Assembly (NCBI RefSeq): GCF_018873765.1
Contig: NC_057916.1
Location: 27,441,501-27,505,500 of the forward strand
Direction: 5' to 3'
Length of the DNA: 64,000 nt
Origin: Telopea speciosissima
Lineage: Eukaryota; Streptophyta; Magnoliopsida; Proteales; Proteaceae
This document shows positions 40,413 to 62,404 of this stretch, in pieces. Every line of letters starts with the position of its first letter. The first letter of the stretch is position 1. The position numbers were made by a program, and so were the translations under genes. The notes below the pieces were generated by a model. That model worked only from the letters and a program-made list of their open reading frames with translations, searched no databases and was not told where the DNA came from.

Positions 40413-41837
40413 TACGGAGGACCTAAATCCGCCTGGTTGCACTCTTGATCGGAATTGGGCAGATCGATGGAATCCTCACCTGGCTATATATGTGCTATCC
40501 TGGAAGAAGGTTTTTGGCCTTTTGGGACATGAACCCGGTTGGCCCAGCCGCCTTTTGACCAGCCTAGGCTACATCTTGGGGGCCAGGCATCAGCCTATCC
40601 TCTAAGAACACTATGGTCTATTTATGTTTACTCTGAATTTAGCTTTGGGTAAGGTTTAGACATTGGAAGAAGGTATTTGACCTTGTTCTCACTATATCTC
40701 TGTTCTAATCTATTATAGCTGTGAGTGATGTAGTAAATTGCTAGACCAACAAACTTTTAATGAAGGTCCAAAACCACCTTTTCTTGGTCAGAACTCTATA
40801 ATTCCCTTCTTACTAGTGCATCTTCCCTTTTGAGAGCTGGATATACCAGAAATAGACCGCTGAGCACTCTTTGAGTAGAAGGAGACGTATTGTGGTGTTC
40901 CTTCAGTATTCCTCCTATTAAGGGTGGAACTGTTCTGGTTCTTAATAGGTCCTAGGCATTGTTCCAATATATATCTAAAATTCCCAAATTCATTCCTAAA
41001 AAGAAATCTATTCCTTGGCATATAAATAAAGCTATGATCTAAATACTAATTAAACACAGAAATCTCCTTTCCTAACCTCATAAATAATCCAAATTTTCAA
41101 AATCCATATCACCAAATAAACACCATAATCGGTTCCTACTCAGTCATTCAGTTCCTATTTAGTTATTTGATTCTGGAACCGGTGGTGTCCCAATTATTAA
41201 TTGGGTGACAGTTCCAGTTTACTTTGGTTTGATTCCAAGAGTCCCGAGGGATGTGATCCCAAATTGACACCCTTTATGTGGCAAAATTTTGAAAAAAGTA
41301 AAAAGAAATAAGGGTTAATTTCAGAGACACCCCCTGTATGTATATGAAATATCACGGACATATCAAACTTCGGAAAAATATCAACCTTCCCTCTAACGAT
41401 AAGTACAGTTAGCACTCAAAATTGAAATGTCCATTTTAACCCCAAAGTAGTTCTTTAAATAAAAGGTAAAATACACGTACTCCCCCTTAGAATGCACCCA
41501 ATATTCCTCGTACCCCCTAAGCGGCTCAATATTCCACGTAGCACCCTTGCTTAACATCCCAAATGCCATTTAAGTCCACACCAGGTATTAAATGCTATAA
41601 AATGATCAAGCTACCTTTTCTTCTATCTTTTCTAAAATTTGAAAAGACCTAATTACCTTGAGTTATTTGCTAAAATTTAAAAAAACTAAAATGCCCTCAT
41701 CTTCCCCAAATCACCATCTTCTTTTACATACCCACCACCACCACCACCATCACCACCACCACCACCAAATCATCATCTTTAGATAACGAGCTGATGATAC
41801 TGAATCAGTTTGACAAGGACGACGACACGTCCGAGTT

Positions 41838-43234
41838 TTATCTCCGCTCCCATGACTCGGCCAAATTGGTAAACGCAGTCTTTGACGATCCACCTTCAGC
41901 CCATGAAGCCAAGGCCTTCTCCCTCATTTCCCTACACCGCTCTCTCATCTCTGTTCCCTCCTCCGAGTCCATCAACGCTCTGACTCGCTTCTCAACCTCG
42001 GCAGCCACCACAATCCCATCCTCCTCCGCCACCTCCATTGGCATAGCTAACTTCATCTCCTCCAACAAAACCACCTTATTCACTTCCTGTTCTGCATAGA
42101 GCGGCCAAGCCAGCAATGGCACCCCAGCGCACACCGCTTCTAAAACCAAGTTCCACCCACAGTGAGTCACGAATCCACCCACCGATTCTCGACTCAACAC
42201 CTCAACCTGCGGCGCCCACGACTTCACCGCCAGTCCCCTGTCTCTGGTCCGATCAAGAAACCCCTCCGGCATCACAGCGTTAAGATCGAAATCATCCGTG
42301 GCCGATAACAAAGACCGTCTGTCACTATTGGAGGACTTCGCACCACCCACAAGAACCTCTGGCCACTCCTCTCAAGCCCCGCGGCGATCTCTGCAATCTG
42401 TTTCGCCGGGAAAACGCCGCGGCTTACGAAGCTCAAGAACACAATGCTTCGACTCGGTTGCACGTCAAGCCACTTCAAGCAATCTGACTCACTAGATTGA
42501 TCTATGGGTTGTACAACTAATGGTCCAATACAGAAAAAAGCCGGCATTTGTTCTCTGACCGCCTCGATTACTCTAGGCTCTAGTGCTTCAAAGCTGTTTG
42601 ATATAATTCCCCTTGATTTGGTGAGATGGTTTGACAAGTCCAACATATCATCGTAGAACTCATTGTTCCGATCAAGTAAAACTTGCGGCATCTGTGCAGC
42701 ACGAATTGGGGGCAAGCCTGGGATGTCGAGATTTGTGTTGCCAAGCTCCCTGAGGCTCTTGTCAGTCTGGTTATGAATCGTTGTAAGGTAAAGGAAGACG
42801 GAGAGACCAGAGGCACCGCTCGGCACGTAGTTGTAAAGAGGGATGTTTAGGTCGGCGGCAATAGGGAAGGCAGAGTTGCAGAAGAAATCGATCACAAGGG
42901 CTGCAATGGAGGAAGAGTTGGAGATGGTTTGGAGGGTGTGGAGGAGGTTTGGATTGTTGCGGTGGATGATTTGGAAGATGGTGGGGGATGAAGATTCAAT
43001 TTTGGGAAGAGCAGGGAAGCGGTGGAAGACGATTGATGGGTCTGTTTGGGAGACATGATCGATGTAAGAATCTACAGCCGGGATGTTGAATGAGTCGCCT
43101 GACATGAGGAGGACTGTGACGGAGAAGCGGTGGCGTTGGTGGTGGTGTCGGTGGTGGTGGTGGTGGTGGGTATGCAAAAGAAGATGATGATTAGGGAAAG
43201 ATGAGGGTACTTTAATCTTTTCAAATTTTAGCAA
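41838..43234 (-). pseudogene. UGT88-like glycosyltransferase pseudogene inside the Pack-MULE
   Basis: Family 1 UDP-glycosyltransferases of the UGT88 group glucosylate small phenolics in the cytosol. Seen here: IPLYNYVPSGASGLSVFLYL, DIPGLPPIRAAQMPQVLLDR, GIISNSFEALEPRVIEAV, GQRFLWVVRSPP, and a PSPG box from WAPQVEVLSRESVGGF through HCGWNLVLE to WPLYAEQ (Ser to Leu at HCGWN-S). The reading frame 43234-42272 breaks at about 42345 by loss of one base and continues in 42350-41838, ending ESWERR-stop. The true N-terminus with the catalytic His (GIGH region) is missing. The first approximately 27 codons are read from the MULE TIR, then a His tract from GTG/CAC repeats. FGSRG is FVSRG. It is a chimeric, inactive copy. 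Confidence 0.88.
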
Positions 43235-43864
43235 ATAGGTCAGGGCAATTAGGTCTTTTCAAATTTTAGAAAAGATAGAAGAAAGGATAGTTTGATCATT
43301 TTATAACATTTAATACCTGATGTGGTAGGGGTGTCAATAATACCGGCTGGCCCGAACCGCCCGAACCCCCCGAGCGGCCCGAACCCGACCCCGATCTGCA
43401 GAAGGGCGGGTCGAGGTTGAGATTTTGGCTGACCCTCGGCGAGGGTCGGGTCGGGTCGGGTCGGGCTCAACATGGCGGGCCTAGCCGGCCCCCCCTGACC
43501 CACTGAATTCTTTATAAGCCTTTATATGGCTGAAAATACCAAAATACCCCTAAGAGTGATAAATAACCCTAATCCCATATGGCCATATTCCTTTTTGTTT
43601 TCACTTTTCACATTTTCGGTCTTCCCATTCTTCTTCTTCATCCACGAGAAGCGAGAAAGCCGCCGCTCGACGACTAGCCCCTTCTTCTTCCTCGGTTCCT
43701 CCTTCCCAAATTCGCATCAAGGAGTCAAGGACTCAAGGTATGTTCTAATATTCAGCACTTCATTCTTATTTGGGTCTTTCCCCATCCTCGCAAGCAGTCT
43801 TGCTAGTACTCAAAATCAATTTATTGTCTGAACTACTCAAAATCAATTTATTGTCTTCAATGAA

Positions 43865-44520
43865 TCATGATTGAGAAAGAAAGTAGACCTGAAGATGTAG
43901 ATTGTAAAACACTACGCCCTGATGAAGCAGAGGCTGAAACATTAGACACTTCAAGGCCCTCTTCTTCCAAATTAAGCAAAACCTCTGGACAGTGAACTTC
44001 TCATGTTCGACTCCCACATATCTGAATCATTACTTCTCTTTCTTCAATTTGACTCACGAAACACTTGGTAATGATCTTCGAACAATCCCATTACTTTGAT
44101 TAGTATCGATGTGGATTTGATCTCCTTTCTTGTGAATACTTGATAGGATGTCCTGTTTTCTCTGTTTCAGCTTCTCAACTTGTTTTTGCAGCTCGGGTAT
44201 GTATTTTAAAACCCGAGAAATCGTCGCGAATGCTTAGTTTCTCTGCAATTTTACCCAATTGAAAAATATACCATTAGAACTTTGGGAACTAAAGCATAAC
44301 CAAAGGCAATTAGATTAAGAAAAGTTTTAATTTTTTTTTAAAGTACCGTTTGATCAGCCCACGGAAGTATTGATCTAAGAGAAGCATAGAGAGTGTTTAA
44401 TTTCTTGCGGCGATCACGTTCGCTGGCATTATGATTCAGCTTCTTGATTAAGGATGGATCAATATTGGTAATGGCACTAGGCTTAGGTACCCTTTGTAAA
44501 TGGGAAGGATGCAAGAACAT
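43865..44520 (-). pseudogene. Subgroup Ib bHLH transcription factor remnant (bHLH38/39/100/101-like)
   Basis: Subgroup Ib bHLH proteins control iron-uptake genes with FIT. Exon 1 (44520 to about 44347) encodes [20 protein letters not shown] and [13 protein letters not shown], the basic region and helix 1, ending at a GT donor. After an intron, 44247 down to about 43990 encodes KLSI, then with one base lost ATISRVLKYIPELQKQVEKL, the helix 2 end. A further stretch to 43889 has SQIEEREVMIQIC, LEEEGLEVSNVSASASSG and, after another lost base, FYNLHLQ. Frameshifts and a stop make it a pseudogene. Intron position is kept, so capture was from DNA, not mRNA. Confidence 0.85.
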
Positions 44521-61209: not shown

Positions 61210-61289
61210 ATGGGGCAGTACCCTTAAGGGTATTATGGTAAGTTCACCCTGTGGTAAGGATAATTTCGTTATTATAAAAGAATTAACAA

Positions 61290-62070
61290 CAACTTTTTTT
61301 TTTTTGGTTGGAAGAAAATTTATTGAGAAGAACGGGAAACACTCCTACTGACTGAATCAACAACCTCAGTCAAGCAGGGATCGGAGTTGGGCGGGCCAAA
61401 CCATCCTTCCAGAAACGGACAGTGCCCTCCTGGCAAGGCAATCTGCTATGGAGTTAGCAGTCCTTGAAATATAAGAAAAATTACAATTTTCCAAATAAGA
61501 GGCAATATGCCTGATATCCTCCAGAATTGGCAGCACTCTAATGCCAGGGGCTCCAAGATATCTCCAAAAGTCATCGGGTTTGAGACTGCAATACAACAAC
61601 TGCCCAAATGATCACGGATAAGAAACCCCACACTACTTAGCTCCGAACTTGGATCAAAGGAAGCATCGCAATTAAGCTTGTAGGAGCCTGGAGGGGGAGG
61701 GAACCAAGAACCTTGAGCCAAAGTTGGATCCACCCCCCTATAAGAAATATGAGACTCAGAAGCGCTACAGGCCTCCAAAAACGTCGAACAAGCTTTATGG
61801 ACAGCCTGGATCACCTCCTCCCTTGACCAAACTTTTCCATTAAAGAGAAAATCGTTCCTAGAAGCCCACAGGTACCAAAGAACGTAGCAGCACCCTGCCG
61901 TTATTTCCTTGAAAACCCTCTTGCCCTGAGACGAGAGCCCTTTCCAATTAAGCAAGAATTGAAACAGCTTAAAGTTAGGATCAGGCGCAATTAAAGAGTT
62001 CAAGCTGCAACCGAACCAAATAGCACAAGCAAAGGTACAATGGAGGAGGATATGCTCGATGGTTTCATTG
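61290..62070 (-). mobile_element. 5'-truncated LINE (zf-RVT plus RNase H end)
   Basis: The minus strand starts inside the zinc-finger RVT region (ETIEHILLHCTFACAIWF), then FKEITAGCCYVLWYLWASRN and the RNase H-like domain FPPPPGSYKLNCDASFDPSS with SVGFLIRDHLG. After a frameshift at about 61590 it reads FSYISRTANSIADCLARRAL and ends in a stop at 61366. AATAAA and a poly(A) tail (T run at 61291-61302 on plus) follow. ACAACAACTT repeats on both sides (about 61283 and 62071-62080) as the TSD. Dead copy. Confidence 0.85.
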
Positions 62071-62404
62071 ACAACAACTTAACTGCATAGACCTAACGAG
62101 TGGACCAAGTTGAAATAAAAACATGACATGAAGTAAGGGTAGTCTATGATATTTTTCCAAAGTTTGGCATGTCCGTGATATTTCATATACTTACAAGGGG
62201 TGTCCGTGAAATTAACCCAAGAAAAAAAAATACCAATTACTCACTTGATCGGATCAGGTCAAATGCCAAAAATGGTTCTAGAGTGCAGTTTCCCTTTGGA
62301 TTTTTGTATTTATTAATTTTCGATTATTTTCTGAATATGCAAGTCTAATGTGAATGATACTGAGGTTTTTTTTTTTTCTTGCTCTTGGAATTGGTTAAGC
62401 AATT

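Follow-up and report, generated by a model that had tools for sequence, protein, structure and literature searches.

Structure of the locus

We describe here a nest of transposable elements at positions 41312-62218 of a stretch of 64,000 nucleotides from the Telopea speciosissima genome (C1:27441501-27505500, hereafter the window). It is built of Mutator-like elements (MULEs), hAT elements and a long interspersed nuclear element (LINE). Counting the outer element, six nested insertions lie within 21 kb, and five of them carry pieces of plant genes. It is very probable that the nest is real and that each cargo was acquired before its arrival in this locus.

The genome searched (G000) comprises 822,943,500 bases in 1287 contigs; chromosomes are given as C and loci as L, each followed by a number. 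Element ends and target site duplications (TSDs) were set by a scan of the window for terminal inverted repeats (TIRs) and TSDs. The following features were found within the complex (ORF, open reading frame; CDS, coding sequence; percentages are identities to the locus named):

41312-62218, no strand: outer Pack-MULE with a glycosylphosphatidylinositol (GPI)-type cargo; TIRs, TSD and complete sisters; about 2.1 kb uninvaded
41464-49530, no strand: UGT Pack-MULE in the outer element; 9/9 TSD, five outer sisters empty here; about 2 kb when the hAT is subtracted
41781-43134, minus: UGT fragment covering most of the CDS, the stop and 3' flank but not the donor ATG; 97% to C10:11960850-11962208
43326-49414, plus: big hAT in the UGT Pack-MULE; TSD TGATGTGG (8/8), empty in the C7 sister; degenerate transposase
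43830-44478, minus: bHLH cargo, first part; 97% to the donor C7:17892840-17893496; HLH by Pfam
44475-45179, no strand: second acquired segment; 94% to C9:18661159-18661874
45217-45804, minus: bHLH cargo, second part; 94% to the donor C7:17893603-17894194
46384-48468, plus: hAT transposase remnants (BED, RNase-H-like, dimerisation) in several frames, from Pfam and ORFs
49599-59791, plus: transposase-bearing 10.2-kb MULE in the outer element; long TIRs, empty in five outer sisters, multi-copy
50292-51310, minus: BTAF1 cargo of two exons, the intervening intron and a 3' region; 92-93% to C11:4440625-4441716
51304-51844, no strand: segment adjoining the BTAF1 cargo; 91% to C3:12154223-12154756
52526-54850, plus: broken MULE transposase (DBD_Tnp_Mut, MULE, SWIM by Pfam)
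56833-57273, minus: ORF with a GRF zinc finger (Pfam) in the 10.2-kb MULE, on the strand opposite to the transposase
57228-58005, plus: GDPDL cargo with intron sequence; 79-83% to the donor at C9:3.32 Mb
58100-59091, no strand: small hAT in the 10.2-kb MULE; TSD TGGGCTGG (8/8), ends resembling those of the big hAT
58360-58909, plus: host-gene-like cargo of the small hAT, with an ATG frame at 58539; 88% to C8:59607178-59607737
60024-60103, plus: start of an ORF fragment (MAFGRG...) that extends further in the sister copies read
60233-61218, minus: GPI-type cargo, exon part and intron; 90% to the donor at C1:44.59 Mb (L053)
61296-62067, minus: 5'-truncated LINE with RNase H and target repeat; empty in sisters

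Copies were counted outside the window, the donors and their paralogs. For several families 40 candidates were scored out of 60 (UGT), 608 (GPI), 640 (big hAT/bHLH), 137 (10.2-kb MULE) and 45 (outer family), so the counts given below as "at least" are lower bounds; the search that placed the window in the genome scored 40 of 2337. All candidates were scored in the first BTAF1 carrier search and in those for GDPDL, the small-hAT junction, the MAFGRG fragment and the small-hAT cargo. Short or weaker matches were kept as unclassified and do not count as carriers: for UGT, for example, C1:61908675 and C2:50650952, for GPI C11:31935790, C4:9276301, C4:28371919 and C4:57483830, and for bHLH C11:15154131 and C2:22214240. 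The outer element was compared with 11 non-window loci, five of which hold every outer segment (L030, L032, L033, L034, and L036) and are called complete outer sisters.

Order of insertion

The outer MULE inserted first, then, in any order, the UGT Pack-MULE, the 10.2-kb MULE and the LINE, and finally one hAT in each inner MULE. This order is read from empty sites, which exist in sister copies for all five inner insertions. At the junctions 41463|49531, 49598|59792, and 61295|62067 the sequence is contiguous in 5/5 complete outer sisters, and the LINE site is also contiguous in two further loci (L031 and L040). On C7, the UGT Pack-MULE has a sister with a separate 9-bp TSD, in which the big-hAT site is empty. 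The small-hAT site is spanned by ten GDPDL-carrying sister MULEs, and three more match from position 54 of 250 (joined flanks).

Identity to sister copies fits this order, with 93-95% for the outer element (60233-61218), 96.5% for the UGT Pack-MULE, 92-96% for the 10.2-kb MULE, 95-97% for the small hAT and 98% for the big hAT, the last from the single copy matching over full length among the matches listed. An assembly artefact was considered and is thought unlikely, since the same element ends were found again in sisters.

An earlier note on this DNA had proposed this nesting order, and the empty sites bear it out. It had counted four levels ordered from intact TSDs: the nesting holds, with three tiers (four if the host is counted), and two of the TSDs are imperfect. 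The elements that it named are present; the LINE and four further acquired or gene-like segments had been overlooked.

The outer element and its GPI-type cargo

The outer element has MULE-type TIRs of 72 bp with 90% identity, a host-gene-like cargo and 9-bp TSDs in its sisters, as expected of a Pack-MULE. No transposase was seen in the uninvaded element (L030:1-2300 was read, and one 140-aa frame had no Pfam match). In the window, its TSD (AAGAAATAA/AAGAAAAAA) matches at 8/9 in A-rich surroundings and is thus not literally intact. All four outer sisters checked have 9/9 TSDs, and their lengths are 2103 bp (L046), 3053 bp (L047), 2074 bp (L048), and 2116 bp (L049).

The donor of the GPI-type cargo has two open exons, and the match spans exon and intron. 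The window ORF matched no Pfam model. The name GPI-anchored, used in the earlier note, and the label At4g28100-like are presumptive; what the match shows is homology to an open gene of this genome. A second candidate donor, at C9:9.697 Mb, is more likely a paralog, as it matches at 79-86% and the intron is missing from the match.

The GPI segment is carried at at least 15 other places and varies in extent, with L051, L055, and L056 lacking the last-exon part. Donor and paralog agree in six states that none of the 11 aligned element copies keeps, and all 11 have two one-base deletions in common. A 31-bp repeat stands on either side of the segment in 6/6 outer-family sisters examined; one copy is left in the window and one in each of three second-family carriers, and it was not found in donor or paralog at up to 7 mismatches. 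At least seven related outer-family places, whose structure is partly resolved, match the early part and not the GPI segment, as judged by match limits, and three of them hold 61219-61295 about 110 bp further on. The MAFGRG fragment had no Pfam match, and NCBIfam and PDB naming efforts on it and on a MAESHNGG fragment gave no name. Three GPI carriers (C8:60834199, C8:60876836, and C8:60918987) lie about 42 kb apart, which suggests a large tandem duplication including the element.

The same segment occurs in elements with other ends. The TIRs of L051 and L056 are 77 and 82 bp long and match the outer TIR over only about 25-29 bp. In the tree of GPI copies, L051, L054, L055, and L056 group at 99% support with five states in common, and no state is private to the remaining seven. 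The element copies as a whole are separated from donor and paralog at 87%. The branches that nest the second group among the outer-family copies have 21-56% support, and on this sequence comparison the tree suggests that one captured GPI segment may have passed from the outer family to another.

The UGT Pack-MULE and its TIR family

The UGT element has TIRs, a 9/9 TSD of 9 bp (TTAAATAAA) and a host gene fragment, and we class it as a Pack-MULE. Its donor lies in a UGT cluster at C10:11.85-11.98 Mb, where the closest gene, at 97.3%, has an ORF of 463 aa without interruption. This gene is called the best gene below. Compared with four C10 genes, the window copy has 15 variants private to the best gene, 5 in common with the next and none with the two others. 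Pfam found the UGT domain in the 3' ORF of the window copy only, and the 328-aa ORF of this region matched no Pfam family. The cargo is carried at at least one other place, the C7 sister, and the two copies have 8 derived sites in common.

One Pack-MULE TIR family can hold many different cargos. For the interiors of the UGT-TIR family, seven non-window loci were fetched first, and L003 and L004 were dropped for having no full second TIR within 3.2 kb. The six elements with both TIRs hold five different interiors, those of L002 and L008 being alike. The interior of one of these elements (L007, C8:51878058-51881295) encodes an ELO fatty-acid elongase fragment (5e-20); the other interiors tried by Pfam, NCBIfam or PDB gave no name.

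The big hAT and its bHLH cargo

The big hAT shows an 8-bp TSD, a short TIR and a transposase with BED and dimerisation domains, as hAT elements do. Its bHLH cargo is carried at at least six other places. The segment 44475-45179 stands where the bHLH donor locus has about 107 bp. In at least five sibling hATs the match covers the leftmost 329 bp of the query, resumes at 2325 and skips the bHLH part. At least three bHLH-carrying hATs have no match to this 0.7-kb C9-like segment, and the hATs at C7:62.15, C5:36.40, and C10:6.17 Mb, like that of the window, hold all or part of it.

The 10.2-kb MULE with BTAF1 and GDPDL cargo

The 10.2-kb MULE has Mutator-type transposase domains and long TIRs. Its TSD at these ends is 8/9 and ambiguous, within a poly-T run. 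Since it and the big hAT both contain transposase domains, they are transposase-derived elements with cargo rather than Pack-TYPE elements, which are without transposase in the sense of PMC8903248.

One BTAF1 exon has matches to four PDB entries (6g7e and others) that bear the name "Helicase-like protein" and that we take to be Mot1; the other (last) exon had no PDB match. A second BTAF1 locus is found at C11:41.74 Mb (86-92%). The BTAF1 cargo is carried at at least 11 other places, and the GDPDL cargo at 12, of which ten lie next to a BTAF1 carrier. At least 23 places match the MULE only from 51864 on, without BTAF1 or the C3-like segment, and two of these also match 49900-50173 nearby. Among the best 40 of 137 matches, the C3 locus is the only one to 51304-51844 outside the BTAF1-carrying MULEs.

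The GDPDL donor exon matches GDPD by Pfam (6e-08) and had no PDB match; the 55-aa piece in the window matched no family. By its sequence, the ORF with the GRF zinc finger could be a second element gene or a further acquisition.

The small hAT and the LINE

The small hAT resembles the big hAT at its termini, and its TSD is likewise 8 bp long. Its length of 992 bp, the donor-like match on C8 and the fact that no transposase was seen in it lead us to class it as a Pack-hAT. Its cargo had no Pfam match, is present in sister copies elsewhere (seven full and two partial) and has additional matches at C8:59.599-59.628 Mb.

The insertion at 61296-62067 is identified as a LINE by its RNase H and zf-RVT similarity, poly-A end and target duplication. 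RVT_3 (RNase H) scored above the Pfam cut-off and zf-RVT below it. The target repeat (TTAACAACAACTT/TTGACAACAACTT) matches at 12/13 and is accompanied by a T-run.

Other features of the window

Outside the complex, positions 27307-35410 hold a pair of direct repeats of about 310 bp (96%) at a distance of 7.8 kb, and the DNA between the two has matches to copia-type gag and gag-pre-integrase; this looks like a degenerate copia long terminal repeat retrotransposon. A tRNA-Lys(TTT) gene lies at 38355-38427 on the plus strand (76 bits, Rfam). An ORF with a protein kinase domain (3017-3607, minus strand, Pfam) is probably part of an ordinary host gene. Short tandem duplications were found at 25640-25984 (about 190 bp) and 36323-36494 (about 86 bp).

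Origin of the cargos and of the nest

The donors of the five named genes lie on five chromosomes (UGT on C10, GPI-type on C1, BTAF1 on C11, GDPDL on C9, and bHLH on C7), and intron sequence is kept in the GPI-type, BTAF1, GDPDL and bHLH pieces. Every cargo also occurs in sister elements at other loci. The captures thus predate the amplification of the elements, and the nesting is the latest step. We propose that multi-copy class II families took up host DNA elsewhere and that their copies later inserted into each other here. In each acquisition, host DNA would have been inserted into the interior of an existing element or substituted for part of it, and the altered element would then have been mobilised by the transposase of its own or a related family.

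The earlier note had suggested a search for parental genes and a check for empty sites, and both donors and empty sites are found. Its five gene identities hold at the family level, for the GPI-type piece as homology to an open gene, with a donor located for each; its finer labels UGT88 and Ib bHLH are presumptive. Capture at the DNA level is upheld by the introns of four pieces, the UGT donor being itself an uninterrupted ORF, and independence of the captures by the five unlinked donors. The notion that the captures took place at this locus falls, given the sister elements elsewhere. Of its two explanations, unusually capture-prone elements find support in one family only, that of the UGT TIR, where five interiors occur in six elements and ELO is named besides UGT. 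The other, a preferred landing zone, is not indicated, since both invaded MULE sites are empty in 5/5 complete outer sisters. Such a zone, perhaps due to shared chromatin or target features of the outer element's end, would agree with the same outer element having taken two MULEs at 68 bp spacing. Even though five sisters are a small number, we consider it very improbable.

For the acquisition itself, we favour with moderate confidence a gap repair in which the template is switched to an unlinked donor. This reading is favoured by the multi-copy elements, the unlinked donors without TIRs, the 31-bp repeat and two junctions, in the bHLH hAT and the BTAF1 MULE, where the alignments of neighbouring sources overlap (4 and 7 bp). 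The donor stretches searched showed no element TIR (6 kb for UGT, 6 kb for GPI, 2 kb for BTAF1, and 1.4 kb for GDPDL); a UGT paralog (L045) has one 21-bp match to an element TIR. Alternatively, two element copies could flank host DNA, lose their facing ends and mobilise the DNA between them as a hybrid, as in the model for Pack-CACTA elements. This fusion expects a repeat or a loss around the cargo, as found at the GPI segment and in the bHLH hAT. It is described in PMC13317346 and in PMC8903248, the latter favouring it for all the superfamilies studied there. However, the UGT, GPI, BTAF1 and GDPDL donors have no TIR beside them in these stretches, although older insertions may since have disappeared from there. 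Around the bHLH donor, the best 40 of 640 matches include none to a hAT end, with a query that starts after the first 154 bp of the hAT. Besides, paired insertions around gene parts would be needed at several unlinked loci, and we regard fusion as unlikely for these cargos.

Most likely, to judge from the sequences, the gene fragments are passive cargo, given that the window UGT copy has no ATG and a 4-bp deletion and the C7 copy two stops. Some captured pieces may instead be expressed or selected, for instance as antisense regulators or as a shuffled gene. Several cargos lie opposite to the element transposase inside multi-copy elements, and the UGT copies have fewer non-synonymous changes than the neutral expectation (23% synonymous and about 77% non-synonymous, from counting all possible changes). 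Set against the missing start, the frameshift and the stops of the two UGT copies, and the one-base deletions common to the 11 GPI copies, such a role seems improbable.

Several points weigh against our interpretation. Two TSDs, those of the outermost element and of the 10.2-kb MULE, are weak. The cargo-free status of siblings depends on match limits, and the bHLH donor is a putative one placed by match coordinates. Two other junctions have gaps, of about 20 bp before 51864 and about 48 bp after 58005, BLAST overlaps are an approximation of microhomology, and flanking repeats with lost internal stretches are also expected from neighbour fusion. The window UGT copy differs from its donor by 18 synonymous and 19 non-synonymous changes (19/37, 51%) and the C7 copy by 28 and 43 (43/71, 61%). 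This synonymous excess may partly date from the gene, and some constraint on the copies is conceivable.

More tentatively, with the odds somewhat against it, captured DNA could be a currency that is handed on and edited among transposon lineages. The hAT and MULE families would acquire and reacquire it by template switching, the GPI segment would have crossed between families, and nests may be places of exchange.

Comparison with known systems

The uptake of unlinked gene pieces by DNA transposons is still debated. Here donors are available together with siblings with and without cargo (by match limits) in at least two families, the hAT with bHLH and the MULE with BTAF1 and GDPDL, and thus the junctions can be read directly. 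Moreover, several captures at one place need not mean capture there, and the test by empty sites and sister copies decides. The system is of a known kind, real, ordered, and well explained, and it is good material for testing models of capture. Our literature search found no report of a Pack-MULE in Telopea, most subscription journals being outside its coverage.

Pack-TYPE elements of rice, maize and Arabidopsis contain host coding DNA and belong to several superfamilies, hAT included, according to PMC8903248. The elements described here resemble them and Pack-MULEs in their TIRs, superfamily-typical TSDs, host coding DNA and multi-copy state. Nothing differs categorically; here, five cargo-bearing class II elements are found in one nest.

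In grapevine, a transposase-bearing hAT (Hatvine-6) and a MULE with cellulose synthase pieces were reported in 2008, and Hatvine-6 copies have a common transposase and TIRs and a differing variable region (PMC2528002). As in those elements, hAT and MULE families here contain genic exon and intron segments. The difference is that cargo-free, cargo-bearing and altered-cargo siblings, as told by match limits, can here be aligned within one genome.

For animal Pack-TIRs, PMC8277862 describes gap filling with template switching, with 1-36 bp of shared bases at breakpoints (median 2 bp). Our elements are like them in being multi-copy, in having donors and in the short shared bases expected at breakpoints, and the 31-bp flanking repeat lies near the top of that range. 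Most of the single-copy cases from animals in that paper lie near the parental copy; in our elements the donors are unlinked.

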